Source: Pseudobdellovibrionaceae bacterium
Lineage (GTDB): Bacteria > Bdellovibrionota > Bdellovibrionia > Bdellovibrionales > Bdellovibrionaceae
Direction of reading: 5' to 3'
Assembly: GCA_019637955.1 (NCBI GenBank)
Contig: JAHBUS010000013.1
Location: forward strand, 1-47,248
Length of the DNA: 47,248 nt
Part shown: positions 192 to 14,819 of the stretch, in pieces
How positions within the stretch are numbered: position 1 is the first letter of the stretch
Layout of the letters: every line of letters starts with the position of its first letter
The notes under the pieces: generated by a model
What the model was told of the DNA's origin: nothing
The model's database searches: none
The model's input: only the letters and a program-made list of their open reading frames with translations
Program-made: the position numbers and the translations under genes

Positions 192-1073
192 GTGGTAGCT
201 CTGAAGGCTATGGTTCAAAAATCCTCTCTTCAGTCGTACACCCAACAGCTTCAAAAATTGGGGGCCGATGTCCCCTACGCCCACGTCGTTTTAGGATCGG
301 GCTTTGGCACCTCCTTGGATGCCTTGCTTGCGAGCGATTGGGTGAACCTCGGCGAGATTAAGTTCGGCGATGTCGAAGGGCTCATCGCCTCGACCGTTCA
401 GGACCATGCCGGTAAATACCGCCTGTACCGTCACAAACCCACGGGCAAAGTCGTGCAATTTCAGATGGGCCGTCTGCACGGTTACGAAGGTCACGACCCC
501 CGCCTCGTCGTGCGCACGGTGATGATCCCGCGCGTGGCGGGCGTGAAAAACTTTTTGCTCACCAATGCCGCGGGCGGTTTGGACCGCGCCATGAATCCGG
601 GCGATGTCATGATCATCGAAGATCACGTCAACCTCACGGGCAAAAACCCGCTGATCGGTCACAACCCGGTTGGCCCCGATGGAAAAGAATTAGGCCCCCG
701 ATTTCCCGACATGGGCCACTGCTACAAACCCGAATGGCGTGCGCGTTTACAAACGCACCTTGAAAAGCACGGCCTCAAAGTTCACAAAGGAATTTATCTC
801 GGACTCTTGGGCCCCACCTTCGAAACGCACGCCGAAGTCCGTTTGTACTCGGCTTGGGGCATGAAGGCCGTGGGCATGTCGACCGTGTGGGAGACCATCG
901 CGCTTCACCACTCGGGCGCGCAGGTCGCGGGCCTTTCACTCATCAGCAACTTGGGCGCGGGACTGGCGAACGTGTCGCTGGATCACGAAACGATTCTCGA
1001 GACCTGCCGCAAATCGGCGGCCGAGATCATGCTGGGCCTGGGTGACTTCTTGTCGCAGGATCTGCTCAAATGA
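192..1073 (+). CDS. punA: Purine nucleoside phosphorylase, trimeric PNP family
   Basis: Phosphorolysis of purine nucleosides to base and (deoxy)ribose-1-phosphate in cytosolic purine salvage. The phosphate-binding GSGFG lies near residue 35, NAAGG near 125, GPTFET with the base-contacting Glu near 211, and the AVGMSTVWE segment ends close to Asn253 of ISNLGAG. The Glu and Asn pattern is that of 6-oxopurine PNPs (XapA/PupG/PunA type). The start is uncertain: GTG at 192 follows GGAGG (184-188) very closely, and the in-frame ATG at 210 has GAAGG only two bases away. The protein is 287-293 residues, slightly long for the family. The stop overlaps the next start (ATGA), so the enzyme is translationally coupled to a deaminase of the MTA/SAH type. 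It might therefore act on methylthioinosine; see findings. Confidence 0.9.
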   Translation: MVALKAMVQKSSLQSYTQQLQKLGADVPYAHVVLGSGFGTSLDALLASDWVNLGEIKFGDVEGLIASTVQDHAGKYRLYRHKPTGKVVQFQMGRLHGYEGHDPRLVVRTVMIPRVAGVKNFLLTNAAGGLDRAMNPGDVMIIEDHVNLTGKNPLIGHNPVGPDGKELGPRFPDMGHCYKPEWRARLQTHLEKHGLKVHKGIYLGLLGPTFETHAEVRLYSAWGMKAVGMSTVWETIALHHSGAQVAGLSLISNLGAGLANVSLDHETILETCRKSAAEIMLGLGDFLSQDLLK

Positions 1074-2410
1074 AAAAACTTTTCGACTGGGGAATCCGGG
1101 CTAGCTGGGCCTTGCCGATGAACGGCGAGGTCTCGGTCGAAAATGATTTCTTCTTGGGCGTTAAGGGCACCGACATCGCCTTCGCAGGCCCTTACAAGCC
1201 CTCGCACAAAACGCAGTCCAAGAAATTCATCGATGCCAAAGGCATGGTTCTTCTCCCGGGCCTGATCAACGCGCACACTCACTTGCCGATGACCTTGTTT
1301 CGCGGACTCGAAGACGATGTTCCCCTCAAGGTTTGGCTGTTTGAGCGCATTTTCCCTCTAGAAAAAGAATTCGTTTCGCCCGATTTTGTCAAAACCGGAA
1401 CCGAACTCGCGGCGCTGGAGTGCATCCGCTTCGGCACCACGACGGTTTCGGACATGTACTTCTTCGTTGAAGATTCGGCCAAAGCCTGGGACAAAGCGGG
1501 CCTTCGCGGAATCTTTGGCCAAGCGTTCATGGACTTTCCGCTCCCCGAAGACAAAAAACTGGGGCCGGATCATTTTGGGCGCTTTCACGCGTTAAGAAAA
1601 AAATTCGCCAAATCCGACCGTATTCAAATCGCGCTCTCGCCTCATGCGCCTTACACCTGCAGCGATGACCTCTTAAAAAAGATCGCGGCCACCTCCAAAG
1701 AAACCGGCGCTCTCTTGCACACGCACCTCTCGGAGTCGGTGGACGAAGAGCCGGAATCGCTCGCCAAGTTTGGCAAGACGCAAACGGAGCGTTTTCGCGA
1801 TCTCGGCGTCTTAGGGCCCAAGACCATTTGCGCGCACGCGGTGCACTTGACGCCTTCGGACCGTCAGATCTTAAAAGACTCCGGCACGGCGGTGATTCAC
1901 AACCCCGATTCGAATCTCAAACTCGGCTCGGGCGTGGCCCCGGTCGCCGAATACCTTGCCGAAGGCGTGCGTGTCGCGCTCGGCACCGATGGCTCGGCGA
2001 GCGCCAATGACCTCAGTCTTTTTGGCGTCATGGATCTGGCGACCAAGGTGCAAAAGCTCACGCACAACGACAACACCGCCATGATCGCCTCGCAGGCGCT
2101 GTGGATGGCCACCCAAGGCGGCGCGAACGCGCTCAACTTGGGAGACCAAATCGGCTCGCTCTCGCCGGGTAAAAAAGCGGACTTCATTCTCGTGGATTTC
2201 AACTTTCCCCACTTGCAACCGGTTCATGACCCGATTTCGCACCTCGTGTACTCGGCGCAAGGTCTTGAAGTCGACACGGTCTTCTGCAACGGCAAGATGC
2301 TGATGAAAGCGAAGAAACACGTCTCGCTCAAGCCCGCCGCGATTTTTGCGAAGGCCGAGTCTTACCGAAAAAAAATCCGCGCTTTTTTAGCGAAACTGAA
2401 AGCCTCTTAA
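1070..2410 (+). CDS. mtaD: 5-methylthioadenosine/S-adenosylhomocysteine deaminase-like amidohydrolase
   Basis: A 446-residue metal-dependent amidohydrolase of the MtaD/TrzN/SsnA branch, which hydrolyses the 6-amino group of adenine nucleoside thioethers. Visible metal ligands and active-site motifs in order are NAHTHLP (His69/His71), SPHAPYTCSDD, LLHTHLSES, CAHAVHLT and LGTDGSASANDL with the catalytic Asp. The C-terminal beta-sandwich holds the usual LSPGKKADFILVD motif of the family. The ATG overlaps the upstream phosphorylase stop by four bases, so the two are an operon for deamination followed by phosphorolysis. Substrate preference among MTA, SAH and related nucleosides cannot be read from sequence. 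Confidence 0.85.
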   Translation: MKKLFDWGIRASWALPMNGEVSVENDFFLGVKGTDIAFAGPYKPSHKTQSKKFIDAKGMVLLPGLINAHTHLPMTLFRGLEDDVPLKVWLFERIFPLEKEFVSPDFVKTGTELAALECIRFGTTTVSDMYFFVEDSAKAWDKAGLRGIFGQAFMDFPLPEDKKLGPDHFGRFHALRKKFAKSDRIQIALSPHAPYTCSDDLLKKIAATSKETGALLHTHLSESVDEEPESLAKFGKTQTERFRDLGVLGPKTICAHAVHLTPSDRQILKDSGTAVIHNPDSNLKLGSGVAPVAEYLAEGVRVALGTDGSASANDLSLFGVMDLATKVQKLTHNDNTAMIASQALWMATQGGANALNLGDQIGSLSPGKKADFILVDFNFPHLQPVHDPISHLVYSAQGLEVDTVFCNGKMLMKAKKHVSLKPAAIFAKAESYRKKIRAFLAKLKAS

Positions 2411-2420
2411 GAAGGTCCTG

Positions 2421-2990
2421 ATGAGCGAAATCGACATCGTCGGACCGATGCCCAATTCGTGGCGGCCAACTTCGAGGCCCGTGATTTTCGTCGATGGCGG
2501 ACAGAAATGGCGTCAGGGCGCCGGTGTGCAGGCTCTTTCGATCGGAGATGGCGACTCGGATCCCATCGGCCCCATGGACGTGCGTCTCCCCGCCGACAAA
2601 GACATTTCGGACTTTGGCTTTGCGCTCTCGCAGCTCGCCGAGAGCGTTCAAAAGATCTCGCTGTATGGTTTTAATGGCGGCCGCTTCGATCACGACTTGG
2701 CCAATCTGGGCGAACTGCATGCGTTCTTAAAGACCCGTCACGCGCACGTGCAAATCGAGGGGCGCGGTCACGCGGTGAGCGCTGGCGCATGGACGTTTCA
2801 AATCCAGGGCTTGTTCAGTGTCTTGATGCTCGAGGCAAACCCCGTCACGATTCAAGGCGACTGCAAGTACAAGCTTGAACGGCACACGCTCACGCCGCTT
2901 TCAAGTCATGGTCTGAGCAACGAGGGGTTTGGCGAAGTCCAGGTCGAAAGCACCGGACCGGTTTTTGTTTTCACCGGTCTGAAGGATTAA
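2421..2990 (+). CDS. Thiamine pyrophosphokinase-like protein
   Basis: A 189-residue protein with the thiamine pyrophosphokinase (TPK) pattern: VDGG near residue 25, SIGDGDS, the acidic ADKDISDFGFAL segment, and GFNGGRFDHDLANLGEL. These correspond to family motifs DGG, GDxDS, DKDxTDxxxA and GxxGGRxDHxxANL. The C-terminal half contains LSSHGLSNEGFGEV, matching the SxGLSNE loop that contacts thiamine. TPK makes the cofactor TPP from thiamine and ATP. Deviations (GDGDS for GDFDS, ISD for TD) are mild. The ATG is preceded by AAGGT about seven bases upstream and lies ten bases after the deaminase gene, so it is probably in the same operon. Its stop overlaps the stop of the convergent FAH gene. Confidence 0.75.
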   Translation: MSEIDIVGPMPNSWRPTSRPVIFVDGGQKWRQGAGVQALSIGDGDSDPIGPMDVRLPADKDISDFGFALSQLAESVQKISLYGFNGGRFDHDLANLGELHAFLKTRHAHVQIEGRGHAVSAGAWTFQIQGLFSVLMLEANPVTIQGDCKYKLERHTLTPLSSHGLSNEGFGEVQVESTGPVFVFTGLKD

Positions 2991-3964
2991 ACCGAAACAA
3001 CTTTCTGTTCGATGGTGCCGAAGAGCGATTGTCCGCTGCCGTCTTCCATCCAGATTTTGACCTGATCGCCGGCTTTCATAAAAGGCGTCTCGGGTTTGCC
3101 TTTGTTGATTTGCTCGAGCGTGCGTTTCTCGGCCAAGCAGCTTGAGCCCACGGTCGAATCTTCATTCGCCACTGTACCGCTGCCGATCAAAGAGCCCGCG
3201 ACCAGATCGCGAGTCTGCGCGGCGTGCGCGATCAACTGACCAAAGTGAAAATGCATCTCGCCCGCATTGGCGCGGCCAAAAAATTGGCCGTTCAACTCCA
3301 CCCGCAAAGGCAAATGAACGCGGCCGTCTTTCCAAGCCGCCCCCAACTCATCGGGCGTCAGCGCGAAGGGAGACAGCGCCTTGGTGGGTTTGCTGACAAA
3401 GAAGCCAAAGCCCTGCGCCAATTCGCCGGGGATCAAACCACGCAAAGAGACGTCATTGATCAACACGAACAGACGGATCTTTTTCAGAGCCTCTTCGGGC
3501 GTGGTTCCCATCGGCACGTCGTCGACGATCACGCCGACTTCGGCTTCAAAGTCCGTCCCGTGCGAGAAATCCCGCTGGGGAATCGGTGCCGTGGGCGCCA
3601 AGAACTTGCCGCACTCGGCTTGGTACATGAGCGGAACGGTGTACAAGGTCTCGGGGGGCTCGGCATTGCGAGCTTTGCGCACGAGCTTGATATGATGAAT
3701 GAAGGCCGAGCCATCGGCAAAGAGCCAGGTGCGCGGAAGCGACGACTGCAAATCCTTTTCAACCAGATCAAAGGTCCCCGGTGCGTTTCCCGCACGCAGG
3801 GCTTGATCGAGAACTTTCAGTTTGGGTTCGGCCGTTTTCCAGTTCTCGAGGGCTTCGCGCAAACAAGGCGCGACGCTCGAAGCACGAACCGCCTGACGGC
3901 GGTTCGGGTGGATCAGAATCAGCTCCCCGTCCAGCGACGGGCTTTTCAGTGAACCCAGAATCAT
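2987..3964 (-). CDS. Fumarylacetoacetate hydrolase family protein
   Basis: A 325-residue FAH-fold hydrolase; FAH enzymes cleave C-C bonds of diketo acids, here most likely fumarylacetoacetate to fumarate and acetoacetate. The metal-site segment HGTDFEAEVGVIVDD, the LINDVSLRG stretch, GFGFFVSKPT and the C-terminal GSLIGSGTVANED are characteristic. The length matches the bacterial single-domain fumarylacetoacetases of about 330 residues rather than the 420-residue eukaryotic type. The ATG has AAGGA seven bases upstream. A maleylacetoacetate isomerase gene (4592-5245), which makes its expected substrate, lies nearby on the other strand; that context is the main reason to favour the tyrosine pathway. 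No homogentisate dioxygenase is in the window. Confidence 0.82.
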   Translation of the reverse strand: MILGSLKSPSLDGELILIHPNRRQAVRASSVAPCLREALENWKTAEPKLKVLDQALRAGNAPGTFDLVEKDLQSSLPRTWLFADGSAFIHHIKLVRKARNAEPPETLYTVPLMYQAECGKFLAPTAPIPQRDFSHGTDFEAEVGVIVDDVPMGTTPEEALKKIRLFVLINDVSLRGLIPGELAQGFGFFVSKPTKALSPFALTPDELGAAWKDGRVHLPLRVELNGQFFGRANAGEMHFHFGQLIAHAAQTRDLVAGSLIGSGTVANEDSTVGSSCLAEKRTLEQINKGKPETPFMKAGDQVKIWMEDGSGQSLFGTIEQKVVSV

Positions 3965-3986
3965 GGCAAATCCTTTTTTAAACGGA

Positions 3987-4526
3987 TCAGTCGAACGTGA
4001 TCATGAAGTTAGCCGCCACCGCGTTCGGATTTTCGAGGTTGTCGGCGACTTTCGAGAACAGGCGCTCGTAGTAGAATTCAAAACCCATTTGCGGAGCAAA
4101 TTTGAAGCTCGCGCCCAATTGCATGCCGATCGGGGCCGAGCTCACGCCCTCGCACGTTCCGCCGCCGCAATCTTTTGACAAATTGAACCCCAGGTTCGCC
4201 CCCAGGAAAGCGCCGCCGAAATCGCTGAACTTGTACATCAAGCCCACGGGAATTTCGAAGTAGGTGAACTTGGCGTCCACCGCCGCCGCTCCCGAGGTCA
4301 GTTCGTAGTTGCGCTGGGTGTACATGAAACCCGTGCGGACATTCCAAGCGTCTTGGATCTCAAACTTCGCGACCGCGCCGCCTTGGAAGTTGGTTTTCCC
4401 GTTGACCTTCACGCCCGTGGTTTTCGCTTCGGCGTTGTCGCCGCGAATCCCGAGCACGATGCCCACATCTTGGGCCTGCGCAGCAAAACCCATCATCATC
4501 ACGACCGTCATCAACCACATTTTCAT
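3987..4526 (-). CDS. Small outer-membrane beta-barrel protein
   Basis: A 179-residue protein with a signal peptide (MKMWLMTVVMMMGFAAQAQ, cleavage after AQA). The mature part alternates hydrophobic and polar residues in strands separated by glycine-rich turns, for example NVRTGFMYTQRNYEL, YFEIPVGLMYKF and GAFLGANLGFNL. It ends in an amphipathic strand terminating in Phe-Asp. This fits the OmpA-N/PorT-type eight-stranded barrels of the outer membrane. A loop near residue 120 holds two cysteines (CGGGTC) that could be disulphide-bonded. The ATG has AAGGGGG six bases upstream. It sits just upstream of the FAH gene (22-base gap), so both may be co-transcribed, but no functional link to tyrosine breakdown is evident. 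Confidence 0.7.
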   Translation of the reverse strand: MKMWLMTVVMMMGFAAQAQDVGIVLGIRGDNAEAKTTGVKVNGKTNFQGGAVAKFEIQDAWNVRTGFMYTQRNYELTSGAAAVDAKFTYFEIPVGLMYKFSDFGGAFLGANLGFNLSKDCGGGTCEGVSSAPIGMQLGASFKFAPQMGFEFYYERLFSKVADNLENPNAVAANFMITFD

Positions 4527-4591
4527 AGGAAACCCCCTTGGAATTTCGACGTTTTTGGAGTGTACAATGCGGACTCAGAGGAGTCCACCGT

Positions 4592-5245
4592 ATGACCGAG
4601 TTTGTCCTTTACAGTTATTTTCGCTCGTCCGCGTCTTACCGCGTCCGCTGCGCCCTGCATCTCAAAGGCCTGAAATTCGACTACAAGGCGGTGCATTTGC
4701 TGAACAACGGGGGCGAACAGCACCAGGCCGCTTACCGCGACATCAACCCGGGCCGCGAAGTCCCCAGCTTGATTCACAACGGGCGCGTCATCGGGCAAAG
4801 CATGGCGATCCTGGAGTATCTGGATGACGTCGCCGCCGGGCCTCGCCTGTTTCCGAATGATCCGTACCAAAAGTCCCTCGTTCGTCAGTTCTGCGAAAAC
4901 ATCAACTGTGTTCAACCTCTCCAAAATTTGCGAACGGTGCAATTCCTAACCGGCGATTTGGGACTTCCTGAAACACTGAAACAGCGCTGGCTGGATGAGT
5001 GGCTGGGCCGGAGTTTCGAAACGCTCGAAACGCTGCTGCAAAAGCATTCGGGAACCCACTGCTTTGGCGATCAAGTGGGAGCGGCGGATTGTTTCTTGGT
5101 GCCGCAGATCTTCGCGGCCAAACGGATGAACGTCGATTTGTCACGTTACACCAACGTGCTTCGCGTGGCTCAAGCCGCCGAGGCCTTGCCCGCGTTCCAG
5201 GCCGCGCATCCAAGCCGTCAGCCCGACACGCCCGCCTCGACTTAA
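4592..5245 (+). CDS. maiA: Maleylacetoacetate isomerase (zeta-class GST)
   Basis: A 217-residue zeta-class glutathione S-transferase, converting maleylacetoacetate to fumarylacetoacetate in tyrosine/phenylalanine breakdown. The N-terminal thioredoxin fold begins LYSYFRSSASYRVRCALH, in which SSxSxRVR is the hallmark glutathione-activating motif, followed by NPGREVPSL and the GQSMAILEYLD segment. The C-terminal helical domain has GDQVGAADCFLVPQ, the family's AD(C/I)xLVPQ signature. The longer open frame starts at 4538, but ATG 4592 has CAGAGGAG eight bases upstream and gives the normal N terminus. It is divergent from the outer-membrane barrel gene, with promoters expected in the 65-base interval. 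Confidence 0.92.
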   Translation: MTEFVLYSYFRSSASYRVRCALHLKGLKFDYKAVHLLNNGGEQHQAAYRDINPGREVPSLIHNGRVIGQSMAILEYLDDVAAGPRLFPNDPYQKSLVRQFCENINCVQPLQNLRTVQFLTGDLGLPETLKQRWLDEWLGRSFETLETLLQKHSGTHCFGDQVGAADCFLVPQIFAAKRMNVDLSRYTNVLRVAQAAEALPAFQAAHPSRQPDTPAST

Positions 5246-5258
5246 GGGCCCGCGGCGA

Positions 5259-5522
5259 CTAGGCGCCCCCGCCAAATTTCAGATTTAAATAAGACGAGAG
5301 CGTCTTGAGGGTGTCAAAGTTCACGGCTTTGACATCTTGAAAATTGATGGTCACGCCGAAACGCTCTTCGAGCAGGTTGACCAATTGGATGATCGCGTAA
5401 GAATCGAGGATGCCCTCTTGAAAGAGGTGCGTATTTTCATCGGCCAAGCGGTCCACGGCCTGGGGACGGATCTCGAGAAGAAGTCCTTTAAGAAGTTCGT
5501 AGTCAAACTTTGGGGTGGCCAA
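5259..5522 (-). CDS. Acyl/peptidyl carrier protein, last gene of the PP-loop cassette
   Basis: An 87-residue carrier protein. EGILDSYAIIQLV contains the phosphopantetheine-accepting Ser41 in an LDS context, followed by helix III features (EERFGVTINFQDV). The spacing Phe-x-x-Gly-Ile-Leu-Asp-Ser recalls DltC-type and stand-alone carriers more than the FabF-partner AcpP (DSLD). Start choice: a longer frame begins at 5561, but TTG at 5522 is preceded by GAGAGGAAG and gives the N terminus MATPKFDYEL. The 5' end overlaps the upstream unknown gene by 20 bases, so expression is coupled. It is probably the carrier on which the adenylating PP-loop enzymes upstream load their product; that is inference from context. 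Confidence 0.85.
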   Translation of the reverse strand: MATPKFDYELLKGLLLEIRPQAVDRLADENTHLFQEGILDSYAIIQLVNLLEERFGVTINFQDVKAVNFDTLKTLSSYLNLKFGGGA

Positions 5523-6075
5523 TTTTCTTCCTCTCGCGATTGGTGGCGGAGTACACGCCAATGCTCAAATTGAACCTTAAGTCCGTGTGATAGTCATCCA
5601 GCTCTTTCACACTTTGCAGAACATTGAGCTTAGCAAAAAAGTCCGCCCGGAAGGCACGGATTTTGGCCAGGAGCAGGCGTTTTTCTCCGGCCATAAAGGC
5701 CTCGTAGCGCTTGAACAATCCCGAAGGCAGCGGGAAGCGGCGCACCGCTCCGGGAGCGAAGACATGCTCCATCTCTTGCCGCGCAAAAACCAATCCGGTG
5801 TCGATATAGATGCCCACCTCGCAGCGTTTGCGCAATAGCTCCAAGCGCGCGGCTTCGGCTCCTTGCGGTGCCGGCGCGGCCTTCAGCCCCTGTTCAAAAG
5901 AATAGGTCGTCTCGAACTTTTTAACCGGAGGGACGGCTGGTCCCTGCAAAGCCCAAGTCTGCACGCCGTCCAACGGAAGAAAGAAGTCAGCCTCTTCGCT
6001 GCGCTTGCTCATGAGCACGCGGCCCGTGGCTTGGTCGGTGTAAAGAAAGGTTTTGGCGACCTTAAATCGTGGCAT
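5503..6075 (-). CDS. Unknown protein in the PP-loop/carrier cassette
   Basis: A 190-residue soluble protein that I do not recognise. There is no signal peptide or membrane segment. The N-terminal 40 residues (FLYTDQATGRVLMSKRSEE...FFLPLDGVQTWAL) look like a small beta structure followed by a helix, faintly similar in layout to PqqD-type peptide-recognition domains, but I would not assign it. The C-terminal half is helical and basic (AFMAGEKRLLLAKIRAFRAD). The start overlaps the end of the upstream PP-loop enzyme gene by 14 bases and its own 3' end overlaps the carrier gene, so it is a tightly coupled member of the cassette. Confidence 0.75.
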   Translation of the reverse strand: MPRFKVAKTFLYTDQATGRVLMSKRSEEADFFLPLDGVQTWALQGPAVPPVKKFETTYSFEQGLKAAPAPQGAEAARLELLRKRCEVGIYIDTGLVFARQEMEHVFAPGAVRRFPLPSGLFKRYEAFMAGEKRLLLAKIRAFRADFFAKLNVLQSVKELDDYHTDLRFNLSIGVYSATNRERKKIGHPKV

Positions 6076-7111
6076 ACGTCAGCAATTCCTCATTCGATTG
6101 GATGACCCTGAGGTCCTCCCCGATCGCGATGCGTTTCTCGTCCAAGAAGTACATCTTCTCGAGGCTCTGAATTTTGATCAGCTCGAGCTGGCGCGGATCC
6201 TTCGTAAATCTATGGATGTACTCTTTGGCGGTCCACTTGTACGAATTCATCGTCTTTTTAATTTTGAGATCGTGGTTGTCCATGGACCAACGTTGAAACT
6301 CGGGCGAATCGTAAAAGTGAATGATGTGCTGGCCGTAGCGAAGTCGCAGATCCGCCGTGGTCATCTCGTAGAAGCGGTATTTCACGTGCGACCACTTCTG
6401 CGTGAAATTGAACCACCAGACAAAATCGTGAAGCGAGCGCACCGGAAACGGGCATTCTTGGTTGATCGGGTAAAACCGCTCGGCTAACGCCTCGGCGCTC
6501 CCCGCATCGGGCGGCGACCAGGCTTTGAGCATTTTGGCAAAAGCGTCTTGATAGTTTTCGTGGATCATCCCGTCGCCGTGGATCTGCGCTCCCGGCAGCA
6601 GCATGTCCGAACCGAAAAGCTGATCCCCCAGTTCACCCGTGATGAGCAAGGCCCCGGGCTCTTTGAGCAAGCGGTCCATCGTTTGGAGCGAATTGATCCA
6701 GCGAAAGCGCCGGATGTGGTTCTGAAAAAACGTGGGATTTTCGTCGATCGAATCGTGGCTCATCGAGATCACGATTTTTTTTTGATCCTCTTCGGACCAG
6801 GTCCGCATCAGCGCCACGAGAAGAGCCGTGCTGTCGATTCCGCCGCTGTACGAAACGATGTACCGGGAGCGGTTCATTTTGAGCAGCTCGAGCGCGCGCT
6901 GATCGCAGCAATCGTCCCAGCCGAGACTCTTGGCGCCTTTCAGGTCTTCTTTGAGCGTGGGCAGCTTTTGCGAGAACTGCATGAGATCAGGCTTGTAGTC
7001 GATGCGGCTCATGGAACGGTCAAAGGGATGCACCAAAAGAGCGGGCTTCGAGACGAAGGGTCTCAGGTCCACGGTCGTCTTTTTGGTGAAGTTCAGTAAG
7101 GTCTCTATCAT
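6062..7111 (-). CDS. Asparagine-synthetase-type PP-loop enzyme without glutaminase domain (copy B)
   Basis: A 349-residue protein with the adenylating PP-loop of asparagine synthetases: YSGGIDST at residues 88-95 and the pyrophosphate-side motif GELGDQLFGSD at 159-169. The N-terminal class II glutaminase domain of AsnB (catalytic Cys2) is absent, replaced by about 80 unrelated residues. Family members activate a carboxylate as acyl-AMP and form an amide (AsnB, beta-lactam synthetase, lasso cyclase). Without a glutaminase this one would need free ammonia, an amine substrate, or a thiol acceptor such as the cassette's carrier protein. It is a clear paralogue of the upstream gene, sharing DSIxENPxFxQN, a WWFNF/WWLNF segment, HFYxxxxFQxWSM and SYKWxAKE. 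It begins five bases after that gene ends. Confidence 0.82.
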   Translation of the reverse strand: MIETLLNFTKKTTVDLRPFVSKPALLVHPFDRSMSRIDYKPDLMQFSQKLPTLKEDLKGAKSLGWDDCCDQRALELLKMNRSRYIVSYSGGIDSTALLVALMRTWSEEDQKKIVISMSHDSIDENPTFFQNHIRRFRWINSLQTMDRLLKEPGALLITGELGDQLFGSDMLLPGAQIHGDGMIHENYQDAFAKMLKAWSPPDAGSAEALAERFYPINQECPFPVRSLHDFVWWFNFTQKWSHVKYRFYEMTTADLRLRYGQHIIHFYDSPEFQRWSMDNHDLKIKKTMNSYKWTAKEYIHRFTKDPRQLELIKIQSLEKMYFLDEKRIAIGEDLRVIQSNEELLTYATI

Positions 7112-7116
7112 CGGCG

Positions 7117-8226
7117 TCAGAAAGACTTAAAGTCATTGTCGGGGTTGTACCAGTCTTCGACCGGCAACGACGGGTACATGCGAATGTCCTCGTCGATAAA
7201 ATTCTTTTGCAACTGGTGAATGATCACGTGCGAGAGCGAGCCGCGCTTGATCTTGTTTTTACGGTACCAATCGTCTTTGGTGAACTCGTAGATCGTCTCC
7301 TTGGCTTCCCATTTGTAGGACTCCCAGGTGTTCTTGATCTTCTTGTCCGGATTGTTCATCGACCACAACTGAAAGTCGTCGGTGCCGTAGAAATGGAAGA
7401 AGTTGTTCTCGATGAACTCTTTGTCGATGTTCTTGGTCGTGAAATCCGAGGCGTAGGTCAGCATGCGGAAGTACACCGATTGCCATTTGATCGAAAAGTT
7501 CAACCACCAAAAGAAATCGGCATGGGTGCCGGTCGGGTTCGGCCGGCGCGAGTAGACGTCTTCAAAGAGATTCACGTACCAATCGACGACTTTCATGTCG
7601 TGCCAACGCCCTTCGAAGAGCTTGAGCATCTTGGCGCGGTCATACTTCTCGAGGATCGAGCTTTCGCCGTACATATTCATGAAATCGCGCATGATGTCCG
7701 ACCCGAAAAGCTGATCGTTGTACTCACCGCCGATAAACATGGCGTCTTTCGAGAACAGATGCGGAAATTTGATCGAAGCCTCGAGGCGGAGTTTTCCCAT
7801 CAGGTAATTTTGATAAAAAAGCGGGTTCTCGCCGATCGAATCGCGGCTCATCAACACCCGCATGCGGCGCTTTTGCGCTTCGGTCGCGTTTTTCAAGAGC
7901 GACGACATCACCAAGGTCGAATCGATACCGCCCGAGTAGTAAACATAGATCGGCAGCTCACGCTGGTCCGACTTTTTCAGAAGTTCAAGGGCGCGCTCGT
8001 CGCAAATCTGCGAGTAACTCTTGGTGAACGGGCGGTAGTCCGGCATGAGCGAGAAGGCTTTGGTCTTGACCGGCGTCTTTAAATGTCCCGTGCGGTCCAC
8101 GACGACGACGTTAAATCCCAAGAGATCGAAAATACGGGCAAAGAGCTCGATTCCCGGAAGCTCGTTGTACTGCGGGTGAACCACCGTCATCGGATTGTAG
8201 AAGTAGAGCTTCTTAGATCCGAGCAT
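7117..8226 (-). CDS. Asparagine-synthetase-type PP-loop enzyme without glutaminase domain (copy A)
   Basis: A 369-residue paralogue of the next gene downstream. The PP-loop YYSGGIDST lies at 97-104 and the second nucleotide motif GGEYNDQLFGSD ends near residue 177. DSIGENPLFYQN, FFWWLNFSIKWQ and SYKWEAKETIYEFTKD are shared with copy B. The first 75 residues, which hold no glutaminase Cys, may be a structural or partner-binding region. The protein is cytosolic and presumably adenylates a carboxylic acid. Keeping two diverged copies side by side suggests either a heterodimer or two sequential couplings. The start overlaps the preceding unknown gene by 14 bases, which implies translational coupling. 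The substrate is unknown. Confidence 0.82.
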   Translation of the reverse strand: MLGSKKLYFYNPMTVVHPQYNELPGIELFARIFDLLGFNVVVVDRTGHLKTPVKTKAFSLMPDYRPFTKSYSQICDERALELLKKSDQRELPIYVYYSGGIDSTLVMSSLLKNATEAQKRRMRVLMSRDSIGENPLFYQNYLMGKLRLEASIKFPHLFSKDAMFIGGEYNDQLFGSDIMRDFMNMYGESSILEKYDRAKMLKLFEGRWHDMKVVDWYVNLFEDVYSRRPNPTGTHADFFWWLNFSIKWQSVYFRMLTYASDFTTKNIDKEFIENNFFHFYGTDDFQLWSMNNPDKKIKNTWESYKWEAKETIYEFTKDDWYRKNKIKRGSLSHVIIHQLQKNFIDEDIRMYPSLPVEDWYNPDNDFKSF

Positions 8227-8923
8227 TCAGGTAAAACTCCCTGGAGAATTCGCGCATCAAAAGGGCGATCTCCTCTTTGTTCTTCGTTTTCGGGATCAGA
8301 TCCATGTACTTGAGCAGAACCTCTTCGGTCTGAAATAGACCCATGGTGACCAGCTCGTATTCGAAAATAATCTGATCCGCGGCGCGGTCCAAATCCAGGC
8401 CGCGAACTTGGGCGTATTGGCGCAAGAACAGATGCGGATTGGCCTCTTCCGCGCCCTCGCGCTTTTCGCGGCGGTGGGCCTTGGCTTCGCTGTAACGGAT
8501 CGAGTGCACGGCTTCCCAGCCGATTTCCGAAGGCACCACGCGCTGGCGCGTGCGGCTGACCAAGTAATTCACGCGGTCCAAACAGCGCGATTTCTGAATC
8601 ATGAGCTCGGAGCGTTGGGTGAGATCTTTATCGAGAAAATCGGTTCCGGTGGGCCGCAGAACCAAGAAAAATCCGCGAATGTGAAATTTGTAATCGGTGA
8701 TTTTTTGCGGCGGCATACGGGTGAGAGCGCCCGCGAGATTTTTTGAATCGTGCACGATCGGCTTGTCCGAAGCCATGATCCCGAAGGCGGCCTCGGGGTC
8801 ATTCGCGATCAACGCGCGCGCCGAATTCGCATGCATGCAAATACACAAGATCCGGTAGGTTTTGAGGTCCCAGACCAAGTAGACATGATCCGGGAGCTTC
8901 GATTCGGAAGGTGTATCGTCCAT
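8213..8923 (-). CDS. Unknown soluble protein in the PP-loop/carrier cassette
   Basis: A 236-residue protein that I do not recognise. It starts MDDTPSESKLPDHVYLVW and shows a beta-rich N-terminal third (VYLVWDLKTYRILCICMHA). A helical, strongly charged C-terminal half follows, with a Lys/Arg/Glu-rich segment around residues 150-165 and a regular amphipathic C terminus (FQTEEVLLKYMDLIPKTKN). No signal peptide, membrane segment or catalytic motif is apparent. It overlaps the following PP-loop gene by 14 bases and lies 52 bases after the membrane-protein gene, so it is a full member of the cassette. No strong ribosome-binding site is visible before ATG 8923. Confidence 0.7.
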   Translation of the reverse strand: MDDTPSESKLPDHVYLVWDLKTYRILCICMHANSARALIANDPEAAFGIMASDKPIVHDSKNLAGALTRMPPQKITDYKFHIRGFFLVLRPTGTDFLDKDLTQRSELMIQKSRCLDRVNYLVSRTRQRVVPSEIGWEAVHSIRYSEAKAHRREKREGAEEANPHLFLRQYAQVRGLDLDRAADQIIFEYELVTMGLFQTEEVLLKYMDLIPKTKNKEEIALLMREFSREFYLNARI

Positions 8924-8975
8924 CCATTGAGGATTGCAAACGCACCCGGGGGGCGCAAGAATTTTGTCGCTAGGC

Positions 8976-10331
8976 TTAAGTCTTAAGAACCGACATGATT
9001 TTGAACGCGAGGTAAATCGCGCCCGTATTCACCGCGTAGGTCGACGCGATCGCGAGCCAACCCAACCAAGGTCCCTCGTGACGGGTCTGGCGGAACCACC
9101 AACGCTGCGTGGTCACCAACAAGACAAACTGAATCAAAAAATGGAGCAGGATAAACCGCTGATAGTTTTGCTCGATAAAGACCATCTCCGGAAGCAGACG
9201 AAAACGGGTCAGAAACATCGCGAGCGTCACCAACGCTCCATTCCGCATGCAATAAAACACGAAGAACGAGGTGAACATGACCAAAATCTGTTTACGCGTG
9301 AATCTCAGCAGCGGAACAAAGATGTGACGTTGAATGAACTCGTAGTGGTAGACGCTCCCGCGCTTCCAGTAATCGGCCGGCGAACGCGCCAACCAGGCGA
9401 AATTGGTCGCGTCCCGCGCGTGCATGGCGTAGAGGCGCGCGACCCCGACCACGATATTGAACAAACCGACATCGCCGATAATCGCGACGACATAGCTCAA
9501 GAATGAGCGCGAAAGATCCGCGTCCGCGCCCTGAGCGAAGTACAAGTTGTTCCAGAAAAAACGAGCCTGGAGAAGCGCGAAGCCCACCAGGATATTGATC
9601 ATTCCTTGCCACCAAATCGCCTTGGCGGCCTCGTAACTGTTTTTCTCGATGTAAGAATCCGGCGGCCAGAGCACCGCCTTGGTCACGTTGACCGGACTGA
9701 GGAGAATTGAGCGGTCCACCTTCATGTATGAGGATGCCAGCGAGAGCGTCCACGCCACGAAGACAATGTAGTGCATCTTCAATTTCGAGAAGATGCCGTA
9801 GGCGTTCATGTTGCGATTGGTGAGCAGCAGGTGGATCTCAAAGAGGTACATCAGCGATACGGCGATCGTGAAGATCCAAAGCAGCCGCCGGTGCCACGGC
9901 TTCTTGATCGTCCCCAGCACGACGTAGGTGACAAAGATCATCAGCGGAACACCCGCCGCGAGAATCGCAAACTTCCAAGACGGCAGGCGCCTGAAAAACA
10001 GAAGGTAGCAGTTAAAGCCCCACAAGGCGCTCAAGACAAACGCGTTGAACGCCGTCCGAAACCGGGGCTTTATAAAATAGGAGACCAGCGAAAAACCGAT
10101 GAGAATCACGAAGGCGTAGCCCGCCATGCGCGCCAGCATGAACTGCCCGCTGAATAACAGACCGATTTTTTGCTCGGTCATGTCGTCGATGCGCATTTTC
10201 GTGAAGTACGAAAGCAAGAGAGCGACGGCAAGCATCGGGAGCAGAGCCAGCTTTTCGTGACTGACGAAGAACGAGTTGCATTTGCGCTCAAATCGCCGCA
10301 ATGCCAGTTCGACTTCTGAAGGGTAGATCAA
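8976..10331 (-). CDS. Polytopic membrane protein, MBOAT-like in outline
   Basis: A 451-residue integral membrane protein with about ten hydrophobic segments from residue 27 to the C terminus. The segment RSPADYWKRGSVYHYEFIQR followed by HIFVPLLRF resembles the cytoplasmic re-entrant motif of membrane-bound O-acyltransferases (xSxxDFWRRWxxSxxxWLRDYIYxPL). The position where MBOATs keep the catalytic His (usually WHG) reads YCMRNGAL here, so the classical His is not evident. The start is probably TTG 10331 with AAGGG about nine bases upstream. It lies 23 bases downstream of the heme O synthase gene. With a carrier protein and activating enzymes downstream, a role in transferring an activated group to an exported acceptor is plausible but unproven; it could also be an unrelated transporter. 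Confidence 0.6.
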   Translation of the reverse strand: MIYPSEVELALRRFERKCNSFFVSHEKLALLPMLAVALLLSYFTKMRIDDMTEQKIGLLFSGQFMLARMAGYAFVILIGFSLVSYFIKPRFRTAFNAFVLSALWGFNCYLLFFRRLPSWKFAILAAGVPLMIFVTYVVLGTIKKPWHRRLLWIFTIAVSLMYLFEIHLLLTNRNMNAYGIFSKLKMHYIVFVAWTLSLASSYMKVDRSILLSPVNVTKAVLWPPDSYIEKNSYEAAKAIWWQGMINILVGFALLQARFFWNNLYFAQGADADLSRSFLSYVVAIIGDVGLFNIVVGVARLYAMHARDATNFAWLARSPADYWKRGSVYHYEFIQRHIFVPLLRFTRKQILVMFTSFFVFYCMRNGALVTLAMFLTRFRLLPEMVFIEQNYQRFILLHFLIQFVLLVTTQRWWFRQTRHEGPWLGWLAIASTYAVNTGAIYLAFKIMSVLKT

Positions 10332-10354
10332 GCCCGCAATCCCTTACCGGAGCT

Positions 10355-11233
10355 TTAATTCGATTTGATGAACAAGAAGTTCCACTTGTCGATCACGGGG
10401 ACGTACAAAAAGACAAGCAAACTGATGTTCACCCACATAAAGAAAGCCAGCCATCGCTCCTGCCCGACTGATTTCCAAAAGCGGTAGAACTCTTGCATAA
10501 TCTTAAAAGCAAACGGCAGAACCAGCAAAATATAAATCCAGCTGGTCTGGACGAACCAAGGCGAGGCCACCGCCGTCGCGACGTAGGCAAAGGTGTAGAG
10601 ACCAATGTGATAGAGCGTGCGCGGAACTCCCAGGGCGACCGAAATCGTCGGGACCTTGCCATCGGCGTAGTCGTCACGGTAACGGATCGCCAGGGCCCAG
10701 AAGTGGGGCATTTGCCAAAAGAACATGATCAAGAACAGGTAGACCGAATCCAGCGCGAAGATATGGTCCGAGTTGGCGGCGTACCCGATGGTCACGGGCA
10801 GGGCGCCCGGAATCGCCCCCGGGACCGCGCCAAAGATCATCTTGGGCTTCCACCAGTAAGTGTAAACGCCATTATAAAGAACGACGGTGATCCAGCCGAG
10901 CAAACAAGCCAGAGGCGAGGCTTCCAGAAGCATGTTGCTGCCAAGGAACAAAAAGACCAGGGCCAAAATCAAGCCGGCGGCGGGCTTCATTTTTCCGGAG
11001 GCGATCGGGCGCTTCGAGGTGCGCTTCATTTCGCGGTCCATTTTGTACTCTTGAACCTGGTTGAGCGCGAGCGAACCCGAGCTCAAAAAGAAAATCCCTC
11101 CAAGCGTCCAGAACAGGTGGTTCCAGCTGAAGGGACTTTCGATCATGAAGCTTGTCGCGTAACCCGCCAAACCAGAGAGAACGACAAAGATGACGATCCC
11201 GAGTTTGGTGAGGTCCGCATAAAGGCGAAACAT
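10355..11233 (-). CDS. ctaB: Protoheme IX farnesyltransferase (heme O synthase)
   Basis: A 292-residue UbiA-superfamily prenyltransferase of the inner membrane, which adds a farnesyl group to heme B to make heme O, precursor of heme A for the oxidase encoded upstream. The first Asp-rich active-site motif reads NQVQEYKMDREMKRTSKRPI, matching the NxxxDxxxDxxxxRTxxRP pattern with the expected Asn first; the second conserved loop includes YRDDYADGKVPTISV (DxxxD). About eight or nine membrane helices are present. It starts five bases after the CoxIV gene and closes the oxidase operon proper. No heme A synthase (CtaA) gene is in the window. Confidence 0.93.
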   Translation of the reverse strand: MFRLYADLTKLGIVIFVVLSGLAGYATSFMIESPFSWNHLFWTLGGIFFLSSGSLALNQVQEYKMDREMKRTSKRPIASGKMKPAAGLILALVFLFLGSNMLLEASPLACLLGWITVVLYNGVYTYWWKPKMIFGAVPGAIPGALPVTIGYAANSDHIFALDSVYLFLIMFFWQMPHFWALAIRYRDDYADGKVPTISVALGVPRTLYHIGLYTFAYVATAVASPWFVQTSWIYILLVLPFAFKIMQEFYRFWKSVGQERWLAFFMWVNISLLVFLYVPVIDKWNFLFIKSN

Positions 11234-11238
11234 GCGGA

Positions 11239-11568
11239 TTACGAGAAGATGTCTTGGACCGGCAGGCGCGTCCAGATGTCGAGCACGCAGAAGAATGCCA
11301 GAACGGCCAGGAAGAAGAATCCCGTGCCGAAAATGATTCGATTGCCGTTGCCCTCGTATTTAAGCCCCATGAAGTAAGCCATGACGAGCATCGCTTTAAC
11401 GAAGGCGATCAAAAAGGCGACCGGCGTGGCCAGAACGCCTAAGTGAATGAACTTCGCGGTGAAGACCGTCAGGATCGTCAGCACCAGCAGCGCCAGGCAA
11501 ACGTTACGCAGGATCGAGAACGGAATAATGTGATGCTCTTCGTGACCGTGATTCGCGTTTTGTCCCAT
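11239..11568 (-). CDS. ctaF: Cytochrome c oxidase subunit IV (CtaF type)
   Basis: A 109-residue protein with three hydrophobic segments and a His-rich amphipathic N terminus (GHEEHH), the usual form of the prokaryotic COX4 subunit of caa3/bo3 oxidases. The central AFVKAMLVMAYFMGLKYE contains the family's conserved K-x-x-x-V-x-x-x-F-M-x-L pattern. It packs beside subunits I and III and supports assembly. It is placed between ctaE (3-base gap) and ctaB, the standard order. Confidence 0.88.
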   Translation of the reverse strand: MGQNANHGHEEHHIIPFSILRNVCLALLVLTILTVFTAKFIHLGVLATPVAFLIAFVKAMLVMAYFMGLKYEGNGNRIIFGTGFFFLAVLAFFCVLDIWTRLPVQDIFS

Positions 11569-11571
11569 GTG

Positions 11572-12228
11572 TTACCCCACCAAATAAAGAAGAGGAAAGA
11601 GGAAGATCCAGATCAAATCGACGATGTGCCAGAAAATACCCACGCCCTCAACGGCCGTGAAGTAGTGCGGGTTGAACTCGCCTTTCAAGTGGCGGTACAG
11701 AACCCAGCCGATCAAGCTCATCCCCAAGACCACGTGGATCCCGTGAAGACCGGTCATGCAGAAGTAGAACCCGAAGTAGAGCGGGAGCTGCTGACTGACG
11801 GCCTCATGATAGTGGAAGAACTTTCCCGGCAAGAGCCCGTGTTGGATCTTCGAGGTGTACTCGAAGTACTTCACGATCATAAAGATGAACCCGCACAAGA
11901 TCGTGATGATCAAGCACATCGTCGCCTTCGAGTTCAGGCCGCGCTGGATGTAATGGATCGACAGGGCCATGGTCCACGAACTCGCGATCAGCACCACCGT
12001 GTTGAGCGCGCCCATCTTCCAAGCCAAGTGGCTCGCGCCCTCATGAAAAGTCTCCGGGTAAAGAGCGTGAAAAATGAAGTATCCCACGAACAGACCGCCG
12101 AACATCAAGATCTCGGTCACCATGAACACCCAGATCCCCTCTTTCGAAGTGAGGAACTCGTGCATGGCATCGCGGAAGTGATGCGCGTAGTGGTGTTCGC
12201 CCTTTGCTGTTTGATTAACGGTACTCAT
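11572..12228 (-). CDS. ctaE: Cytochrome c oxidase subunit III
   Basis: A 218-residue seven-helix subunit III of heme-copper oxidases. Characteristic stretches are [18 protein letters not shown] (with the helix III-type Glu), the GLNSKATM loop, and [16 protein letters not shown] near helix V with conserved GLHG-x-HV, followed by [20 protein letters not shown]. The longest open frame starts at 12255, but the ATG at 12228 gives the natural N terminus [10 protein letters not shown]. It overlaps the ctaD stop by 14 bases, suggesting translational coupling. Subunit III stabilises the proton-pumping core. Confidence 0.93.
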
Positions 12229-13801
12229 AAGGCCCCGCAGTGACGACCGGTTCAACTTCGAAGTTGTGGTGCGTCGGTGGTGATTGAACTTGCCATTCCA
12301 AAGTCTTCGCTCCCCAAGGATTCGCTGGAGCGATTCGTTTCGACATCAAACCTTCGATGATGACGTACAGGGCGACCAAGAAGCCGACCCCGATGGTCCA
12401 CGCACCGATCGAAGAGATTTTATTGAGCGATTCGTAAGCGGGAACGTAGTCCGCGTAACGGCGGGGCATGCCCATCGCGCCCAAAACGAACTGGGGGAAG
12501 AACGTCACGTTGAAGCCGATGAAGATCAGCACGAACGAGATGCGGGCCCAGAATTCGTTGAACATTTTGCCGAACATTTTCGGGAACCAGTAGTAGAGGC
12601 CGCCCGTCAGCGCCATCAGCGTTCCGCCCACCATCACGTAGTGGAAGTGCGCGACCACGAAGTAGGTGTCGTGGAAGTGAACGTCAAGACCGACGGTTGC
12701 GAGCATGATCCCGGTCACGCCACCGATCGCGAACAGGAACAAGAAACCCATCGCGAAAAGCATGGGAGACTCGAAGCTGATCGAACCGCGGTACATCGTG
12801 GCCAGCCAGTTGAACATTTTGATCGCCGTCGGAACGCCGACCAGCATCGTCAGGAACGAGAACACGATGCCCGCGATTTCGGACTGACCCGAAACGAACA
12901 TGTGGTGACCCCAAACGAAGAACGAAACGGCCGCGATGCCCAGCGACGAGTACGCGATCGCCGTGTAACCGAAAATGGTTTTACGCGAGAAGGCTGCGAT
13001 GATTTCGGAGACGATGCCCATCGCGGGCAAGATCATGATGTAAACCGCCGGGTGCGAATAGAACCAGAAGAAGTGCTGGAACAGAACCGGGTCGCCGCCG
13101 CGCGCGGGGTCGAAGATTCCCACGCCCAAGGTGCGCTCCATGGCCAGAAGAAGCAACGTGATCCCCAGAACCGGCGTCGCCAGAACCTGAAGGATCGCGG
13201 TTGAGTACACCGCCCAAACGAACAGCGGGATTCGGCCCATGGTCATTCCGGGAGCGCGCAACTTGTGGACCGTCACGATGAAGTTCAACCCCGTCAGGAT
13301 TGAGGACATCCCCATGATGAAGGCGGCCATGACCATCGTGACGACAGCCGTGCCCGTTTTGATCGAGTAAGGCGTGTAGAAGGTCCAACCGGTGTCAATT
13401 TTCGTGGTGAACAAGGTCGAGATCGCCAGGATCGCTCCCGCCATGAACACGTACCAGCTCGCCAAGTTCAGCTTGGGAAAGGCCACGTCTTTCGCGCCGA
13501 TGTGGATCGGCAAGAAGAAGTTCCCCAAAATCGCCGGGATCCCCGGAACGATCACCATGAAGACCATGATGGCCCCGTGGTACGTGAGGATTTGATTGTA
13601 CGTGTTGCCGTCAAAGAGCGGTCCCGAAGCGAAGAGCTCCAGACGGATCAGCATCGCCGCGATCCCGCCGCACAAGAAGAAGAACAAAATCACGATCATG
13701 TACATCAAACCAATGCGTTTGTGATCGATGGTCGTGAGCCAGGACCAGAGGCCCTTTTCGTGATTAATATAGTTGTCACCAGAGGCGTGCGTATTTCCCA
13801 T
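12215..13801 (-). CDS. ctaD: Cytochrome c oxidase subunit I, A2-type
   Basis: A 528-residue, twelve-helix catalytic subunit with heme a/a3 and CuB in the inner membrane. Landmarks are the low-spin heme His in YHGAIMVFM, the CuB His/cross-linked Tyr motif [16 protein letters not shown], the CuB His pair in [10 protein letters not shown], and [12 protein letters not shown] with the a3 and a ligands. The helix VI sequence is YSHPAVY rather than GHPEVY: the D-channel Glu is replaced and the Tyr-Ser pair of A2-type (Thermus/Rhodothermus-like) oxidases is present. It lies nine bases after the CoxII gene and overlaps the CoxIII start. Confidence 0.96.
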
Positions 13802-13809
13802 GTCTCACC

Positions 13810-14793
13810 TCACTTCAATGTTTTGATGTACTCAATAAGAGCGGTTAGTTGATCTTCGGTCAGCAAGCCCTGCTGCGCGGGCATCAAGCCAGCCGAGAAT
13901 CCCTTTACGATATCGGCATTGGGATTCAGGATGGATTCGCGGATGTAGTTCTCGTCGACGGTCACGGATTTGCCATTCGCCATCGTGTGCCCGGTCGATC
14001 CCCAGAGGCCTTTCCACGAGGGTCCGACTTTCACCGATCCATCTGTGGAGTGACATGCGATGCAACCTTTCGAGTTGTAAAGCTTTTCACCCTTTTGCGC
14101 GAGGGTCAGACCCTCTTCATTTTCTTGGAGCCATTTTTCGAAATCAGGAGCCGGAACCACGTGCATTTTTGCCAGCATCGCCGAGTGGGCGGCACCGCAG
14201 TACTCGGTACAGAAGATCTGGTAGTCGCCGGTTTTATCGGCCTTAAACCAGAGCGTGGTGTAGCGGCCGGGAACGACGTCTTGCTTGATGCGCATCGAAG
14301 GAATGTAGAAGGAGTGCAAAACATCTTCGGAAGCCATCACAAGTTTCACGGGAATGCCCACGGGAACGAAGAAATCGTTCGTCGAGACCTTGCCGGACTT
14401 GTACATGAAGTCCCACTGCCACTGCTTGGCTTGAACGTGGATCTCGAACGCGTTCTCGGGCATCACGCGCATGTCGTGATAGACTTTCCAGCCCCACGCG
14501 AAAACGACCAAGAAGAGCACGAGCGGGATGAACGACCACAAGAACTCGAGCGCCATGTTGTGGCTGATGTACGGCGTCTTGTCGTTATCGGTACGACGCT
14601 TGTACTTCACGGCGAAGAAGATCATTCCGCCGATCAGAATCACGCAACCCAAAAAACTCGTCCACAAGAGGAACGAGTACAGGTTGTCGACGTCGGAGGC
14701 GATTTCGGTTCCGACGGGAGGCATGAAGCTCTTCCCAGCCGCGGATGCCGTGTTCACGGCGACCGTATTCATCAGTGCGAGAAACCAATTCAT
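13810..14793 (-). CDS. ctaC: Cytochrome c oxidase subunit II fused to cytochrome c (caa3 type)
   Basis: A 327-residue fusion. Residues 1-20 form a signal-like helix, two membrane helices follow (about 40-62 and 83-103), then the periplasmic cupredoxin domain with all CuA ligands: His160, Cys195, Glu197, Cys199, His203 and Met206 (CTEYCGAAHSAM). A C-terminal class I cytochrome c domain contains CIACH (244-248) and a candidate axial Met in AGLMPAQQG. The aromatic QAKQWQWDF electron-entry patch is present. CuA shows this is a cytochrome c, not quinol, oxidase. The open frame extends upstream to 14856, but ATG 14793 with GGAGA about nine bases before it gives the correct N terminus. Confidence 0.95.
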   Translation of the reverse strand: MNWFLALMNTVAVNTASAAGKSFMPPVGTEIASDVDNLYSFLLWTSFLGCVILIGGMIFFAVKYKRRTDNDKTPYISHNMALEFLWSFIPLVLFLVVFAWGWKVYHDMRVMPENAFEIHVQAKQWQWDFMYKSGKVSTNDFFVPVGIPVKLVMASEDVLHSFYIPSMRIKQDVVPGRYTTLWFKADKTGDYQIFCTEYCGAAHSAMLAKMHVVPAPDFEKWLQENEEGLTLAQKGEKLYNSKGCIACHSTDGSVKVGPSWKGLWGSTGHTMANGKSVTVDENYIRESILNPNADIVKGFSAGLMPAQQGLLTEDQLTALIEYIKTLK

Positions 14794-14819
14794 GGGCACA
14801 TCTCCTTCAATATCCGAAC

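Follow-up and report, generated by a model that had tools for sequence, protein, structure and literature searches.

A six-gene cassette in a Bdellovibrio-like bacterium combines a carrier protein and an MBOAT-related membrane protein with phage-type ligases of the asparagine-synthetase kind

Comparison with described systems

Enzymes of the asparagine-synthetase family adenylate a carboxylate, which is then attacked by an amine. AsnB-type enzymes are known for amide formation and not for making carrier thioesters, and we know of none that loads a carrier. Here we describe a locus in which two such ligases are encoded between a membrane protein and a carrier protein. It lies in a 47,248-nucleotide (nt) stretch, hereafter the window, from a Pseudobdellovibrionaceae bacterium (contig JAHBUS010000013.1, positions 1 to 47,248), and comprises six genes at 5259-10331 in the order M, U1, PPA, PPB, U2, CP. 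The genome (G000, 3.77 Mb, with the window on contig 5) has its closest relatives in our genome collection among the Bdellovibrionales.

The nearest described counterpart is DltABCD, which D-alanylates teichoic acid, alongside the polymer-acylating MBOAT-SGNH systems PatAB and AlgIJ. Shared with the cassette are a carrier with an LDS site, an adenylating enzyme and a membrane protein akin to MBOATs, all in one operon. The cassette differs from Dlt in having AsnB-type instead of ANL ligases, a membrane protein without the catalytic His and two extra partners, U1 and U2. Neither an ANL-type ligase (PF00501) nor a DltD/SGNH protein was found among the six cassette proteins; an SGNH protein does occur in a related carrier-MBOAT operon (L159, described below). 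As the cassette has no ANL ligase, AsnB-type ligases could occupy the place of DltA. An earlier note on this DNA had proposed a functional analogue of Dlt: the theme of ligase, carrier and MBOAT kin stands, while DltA, a true DltB and DltD are all absent.

A precedent for AsnB-type chemistry supplying an acyl carrier protein (ACP) pathway is OxyD of oxytetracycline biosynthesis (PMC6963833), a malonamate-forming amidotransferase that provides the tetracycline starter unit. Like the cassette, it involves an AsnB-homologous enzyme feeding an acyl-carrier pathway; unlike the cassette ligases, OxyD is a class II amidotransferase, encoded in a polyketide cluster and without a membrane partner. Our literature search found no paper that combines the features of the cassette.

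By our analysis the cassette is composite, joining ligase modules of phage type to a carrier-membrane module of the host. Our preferred reading, to which we assign a probability of roughly 0.4, is a carrier-linked pathway that forms amides and has M at its membrane end. The six genes are as follows.

M: 8976 to 10331, minus strand; polytopic membrane protein of 451 amino acids (aa) with a TTG start, a remote MBOAT relative with R at the aligned catalytic His position
U1: 8213 to 8923, minus strand; 236 aa partner of PPA with an N-terminal beta part and a C-terminal helical part
PPA: 7117 to 8226, minus strand; asparagine-synthetase-type ligase of 369 aa without a glutaminase domain
PPB: 6062 to 7111, minus strand; another ligase of the PPA family, 349 aa, only distantly related to PPA
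U2: 5503 to 6075, minus strand; 190 aa partner downstream of PPB, without a family match
CP: 5259 to 5522, minus strand; phosphopantetheine carrier protein with an EGILDS-Y site and a probable TTG start at 5522 (the listed open reading frame reaches 5561)

The six co-directional genes of the earlier note are all present on the minus strand in one tight run. Five of them, not all overlapping, are closely packed, with overlaps of 14 nt for U1/PPA, 14 nt for PPB/U2 and about 20 nt for U2/CP (if CP starts at TTG 5522), and PPA and PPB are separated by 5 nt; M stands 52 nt from U1. Pfam assigns a family above cut-off to CP alone and to none of the other five proteins, and no NCBIfam model scores above its cut-off for any of the six.

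Ligases of the asparagine-synthetase type

PPA and PPB are asparagine-synthetase-type synthetase domains without glutaminase, as the earlier note had it. Both contain SGGIDST and GE.(N/G)DQLFGS (in exact form GE(Y/L)(N/G)DQLFGS) and have a C-terminal Lys region in common, and relatives retain all three features. The SGGxDS PP-loop motif is invariant in alignments of 7 and of 60 family sequences, and the second motif is nearly invariant in the 60. Standard profiles register the family poorly: Asn_synthase (PF00733) matches 7 of the 60 members (best 2.9e-5), and PPB reaches 19.6 bits with the PP-loop model PF01171, below the cut-off. Searches with Pfam and NCBIfam gave no N-terminal glutaminase domain in either protein, whose N-termini extend about 80-90 residues ahead of the PP-loop.

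An AlphaFold2 model of PPA (predicted local distance difference test score, pLDDT, 94.9; predicted template modelling score 0.93) is closest in fold to TsnB9 (Z 13.4; 4.6 A over 257 aligned residues) and beta-lactam synthetase (Z 13.0), followed by human ASNS (Z 12.4), AsnB (11.9) and carbapenam synthetase (11.2). GMP and NAD synthetases score lower than these members of the asparagine-synthetase superfamily, at Z 8-9. With the modelled synthetase-domain fold and its SGGxDS motif, PPA belongs to the asparagine synthetase C-terminal domain superfamily.

AsnB, the beta-lactam and carbapenam synthetases and TsnB9 thus resemble PPA in fold across most of its length (Z 11 to 13), and superfamily ligases share with it the SGGxDS pyrophosphate loop, the second Asp motif and the C-terminal Lys region. 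The PPA family differs in its missing N-terminal glutaminase-type domain, its length of about 350 aa, its scores under Pfam cut-offs and a small partner gene that looks obligate. Such a pairing of an AsnB-like ligase with a small partner protein is also seen in the microcin/lasso cyclase McjC and similar AsnB-like enzymes of ribosomally synthesized and post-translationally modified peptides; in contrast to those systems, we recognised neither a precursor peptide nor a protease or recognition element in the cassette. Roles in lasso-peptide, tRNA-lysidine, LarE or queuosine chemistry were rejected, as the corresponding matches cover only a short PP-loop segment.

The two ligases did not arise by recent duplication, for they fall in separate tree clades, each with phage relatives. 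PPA is nested in a mostly viral clade. PPB groups with ligases from a phage (L092) and an alphaproteobacterium (L024), and by identity a ligase of the order's genome G069 is closest to that of L092.

Phage affinity of the ligase modules

A pattern and tblastn scan for the ligase family returned 9 loci in 84,980 prokaryote genomes and 199 viral contig stretches in IMG/VR; no PP-loop relatives were found in PLSDB plasmids. In the 80 viral stretches that were fetched of the 199, a U1-type gene immediately precedes the ligase in 73 loci, giving 81 pairs that mostly overlap by 4 nt. Of the 80, 35 contain a bicupin gene, 23 a fatty-acid desaturase and 20 a member of another PP-loop family, PP6. These contigs derive from real phages, with genes for tail sheath, major head protein, head closure, PhoH, ribonucleotide reductase and exonuclease nearby. 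Many large tailed phages thus carry this family together with a constant partner gene, and most of its members score under the Pfam and NCBIfam cut-offs. On this comparison of sequences and gene neighbourhoods, we identify PPA and U1 of the window as a phage-type module.

Labelling the ligase tree by source gives five changes, at least three of them forced by well supported branches, so the bacterial copies originated more than once. The GC content of the cassette, overall and at third codon positions, is host-like, and capture of the phage module is therefore old. A recent phage insertion is rejected on the same composition, on the adjoining cytochrome oxidase operon and on the lack of a tRNA in the window.

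Among GenBank phages, tblastn with PPA and three viral members retrieved a single record, Pseudomonas phage Cygsa01 (L105), in which two PP-loop genes (10007-10915 and 11200-12156) beside baseplate genes are annotated as tRNA thiouridylase MnmA. This annotation looks wrong, since the first of them matches the AsnB-type phage family. On another phage contig (L102, 6030-7596), a PP-loop ligase and a cupin directly precede genes for a scaffold-like and a major head protein.

Some phages with U1 and a ligase also encode a carrier, fatty-acid desaturase, fatty-acid hydroxylase, thioesterase or ketosynthase nearby, and in phage L028 a carrier gene lies immediately before PP6. In L098 (5755-16646) and L099, U1 and its ligase are found amid genes for an acyl carrier, fatty-acid desaturase, fatty-acid hydroxylase, thioesterase, and TauD-type and Asp/Asn hydroxylases, a gene content suggestive of a lipid-type biosynthetic cluster borne by the phage. 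The link between ligase and carrier in phages is real in places and not general.

Structure prediction for U1 (pLDDT 87.6) gives a small beta part and a helical part. Foldseek found no PDB match at E 0.001 or better, and the best VIA-align Z, 6.2, is no higher than common helical arrangements give. Phage proteins alone match the fold; the best of these BFVD matches (TMt 0.81) are uncharacterised. A candidate ligation site in the conserved C-terminal tail of U1 was rejected, as conservation there is weak and variable. Of 369 genomes from the phylum, two encode U2 and the others do not. In L092, L024 and L162, the PPB-type ligase is followed by a gene of about the same size, with no detectable homology to U2. 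Homology between U1 and U2 was dropped: the 89% obtained with unproven look-alikes in the U2 alignment falls to 6.5% when the alignment is limited to the two certain U2 sequences.

The membrane protein and the carrier

The search for relatives of M gave hits in 14 of 141 genomes from the order; one (G115) is a canonical MBOAT and one (G042) is broken, leaving 12 clear cases. In hhalign, the M family aligns with MBOATs of the same genomes at 97% probability over 76 columns, the W-R signature included. The alignment stops at the MBOAT active-site His, where M has Arg and its homologue in G013 Lys; the matching residue of DltB, His336, is the active residue (PMC11035591). A search with the MBOAT model PF03062 gave no match in M. 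The MBOAT-like character claimed in the earlier note holds as kinship by profile, with the catalytic His missing: M is therefore MBOAT-derived but probably not a standard acyltransferase. Without the MBOAT His, M should not be assumed to be the transferase.

CP meets PF00550 at 1.5e-7 with its LDS serine intact, which bears out the carrier of the earlier note. Its best NCBIfam score is to DltC, at 29.6 bits against a cut-off of 68; CP is thus a carrier and not a DltC equivalog.

Nine of the 12 genomes (G000, G013, G069, G073, G092, G047, G094, G059 and G095) have a carrier gene no more than about 7 kb from M, against a chance expectation of about 1-2% given one to eight carriers per genome. 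As in Dlt, an ANL ligase, a true MBOAT and an SGNH/DltD-like protein are also encoded at several of these loci. In G069 and G047, one run contains a carrier, an ANL ligase, a pyridoxal-phosphate decarboxylase, a true MBOAT and M, where the ligase and decarboxylase names are our reading of the sequences; PF00501 was confirmed in L159.

Recurrence of the set and the link between its halves

The earlier note had suggested looking for the same gene order in other genomes, and it does recur: U1-PPA-PPB-U2-CP is repeated in another genus (G013) at 35-56% identity and with different flanks, M lying 2.8 kb upstream. This recurrence at such divergence indicates that the six-gene set is more than a chance assembly.

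The two halves of the cassette are further linked by the phage-associated cupin, which is present in 12 of the 141 genomes of the order. It occurs in 6 of the 8 genomes with PP-loop genes (p 2.4e-6), M occurs in 8 of the 12 cupin genomes (p 1.8e-7) and M is found in 4 of the 8 PP-loop-gene genomes (p 0.003); these p values are optimistic, as the genomes are related and the canonical MBOAT of G115 is counted as M. In G000 the cupin lies on a contig other than that of the window. Locus L159 (6137-11181) of G094, a relative within the Bdellovibrionota, shows the same cupin in a host setting, in a run of MBOAT, bicupin, ANL ligase, carrier and SGNH protein, that is, a Dlt-like set with an unexplained cupin. 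In G069 (L162, 1895-8273), a desaturase, an unassigned 415 aa protein, a PPB-type ligase, a small partner, an aminotransferase and a fatty-acid hydroxylase are encoded together, with a cupin about 6 kb further on.

A proposed carrier-linked amide-forming pathway and its alternatives

In the pathway that we favour, PPA (with U1) and PPB (with U2) would each adenylate a carboxylate with ATP and then couple it to an amine. As neither ligase has a glutaminase domain, this amine might be free, might be ammonia or might be supplied by another protein. The phosphopantetheine arm of CP would bear one of the reactants, most likely the acyl or aminoacyl part. At the cytoplasmic membrane, the loaded carrier might then dock on M, which would hand the product to a lipid or across the membrane; alternatively, M may serve a transferase encoded elsewhere. 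This reading is supported by the gene order in two genera, the AsnB-type fold and motifs, the linkage of M to carriers and the co-occurrence of PP-loop genes, cupin and M. It is also supported by the lipid and carrier neighbours in phages, by the desaturase-ligase-aminotransferase-hydroxylase cluster of G069 and by the OxyD precedent.

Several observations weigh against it. The active-site WH motif is present in 0 of 11 members of the M family and in 7 of 8 true MBOATs of these genomes. Elsewhere in the order M is not tied to the ligases and is found in genomes without PP-loop genes. In G013, three genes intervene between M and the remainder of the set. Only 8 of 50 viral contigs, a set that includes many fragments, have a carrier gene, so the ligase module does not generally depend on a linked carrier. 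The complete set occurs in only 2 of the 369 genomes of the phylum, in differing surroundings; the claim of a single system thus rests on two independent arrangements and on the wider profile evidence. The earlier note had regarded independent occurrence of the homologues as fatal to that claim, and in part this is what we see: M without PP-loop genes, and U1 with its ligase apart from M and carrier, chiefly in phages.

A bolder form of the proposal, which we consider unlikely, is that this undescribed phage-encoded ligase family forms, with U1, U2 and the cupin, a new amide-building carrier pathway that Bdellovibrio-like bacteria have wired to M and that modifies or exports a membrane component. 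The window offers a cellular setting for testing the chemistry of the ligases, with carrier and membrane protein adjacent. If the carrier link is true, it would represent a new way of charging or decorating carrier-bound groups for the cell envelope.

Among the alternatives, a lipid or lipo-amino-acid pathway fares best, and even this we regard as unlikely. Here CP would bear an acyl chain, PPA and PPB would condense amino acids or amines, and M would keep or export the lipid, with no envelope polymer modified. In its favour, PP-loop clusters of phages and of G069 include genes for a fatty-acid desaturase and a fatty-acid hydroxylase, for ACP, thioesterase and ketosynthase, and for an Asp/Asn hydroxylase and an aminotransferase; the cassette of the window, however, holds none of these lipid genes, and the carrier is absent from most viral loci.

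A strict analogue of Dlt, in which a PP-loop enzyme loads an amino or keto acid onto CP as a thioester and M moves it to an envelope polymer or lipid, appears distinctly improbable. In its favour, CP is nearest DltC among NCBIfam models, M is MBOAT-derived and has relatives in loci with carrier, ANL ligase, MBOAT and SGNH protein, and the cassette itself lacks an ANL ligase. Yet the nearest folds of the ligase are amide-forming synthetases, M lacks the invariant His and the cassette has no DltD-like gene; such an analogue requires both thioester-making AsnB-type enzymes and an active MBOAT without His.

We see still less likelihood in a chance operon, that is, a phage-derived U1-PPA-PPB-U2 block that came to lie beside an unrelated M-CP pair without joint function. 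M and U1-ligase pairs are each found alone, module combinations differ per genome, and a mere 23 nt separate the cassette from the cytochrome oxidase operon. Nevertheless, the six genes lie close together in two genera despite diverged sequences and different flanks, U2 is confined to those two genomes, and the same cupin accompanies U1 and its ligase in phages and the MBOAT-carrier genes in hosts.

The least probable alternative is a captured system of virion modification, with U1 and its ligase acting on phage tail or head proteins, reused by the bacterium on its own proteins beside CP and M as mere neighbours: the Cygsa01 genes adjoin baseplate and tail genes, those of L102 and L094 adjoin head and connector genes, and one BFVD fold match of U1 (TMt 0.62 over 128 columns, E 5.8e-3, weak) is annotated as DUF4376, a family of tail-fibre chaperones (PMC7289586, PMC10579305), whereas most viral copies lie amid genes for DNA metabolism and other non-structural functions, the resemblance in fold is weak (template modelling score about 0.4-0.6), host profiles tie the ligases to cupin and M, and U1 is not assigned to DUF4376 because none of 46 U1 proteins matched PF14301.

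Genomic context

The cytochrome oxidase operon, whose last gene is ctaB, ends 23 nt before the cassette on the minus strand, and its cytochrome oxidase and haem O synthase genes (10355-14856) lead directly into it. With so small a gap, the cassette may be read through from these genes. Within the six-gene run, the minus strand showed no promoter-like site, and its terminator-like stems match the consensus weakly. For CP, a start at TTG 5522 behind GAGAGGAAG, giving 87 aa, is more likely than the listed 5561, as judged from the start codon and ribosome-binding site.

Another stretch, L013 of genome G027 (851-10623), encodes a full-length asparagine synthase, a carbamoyltransferase-like and an SGNH-like protein, a cupin, and two PP6-type ligases and one PP-type ligase, and from this gene content is possibly a further biosynthetic cluster.

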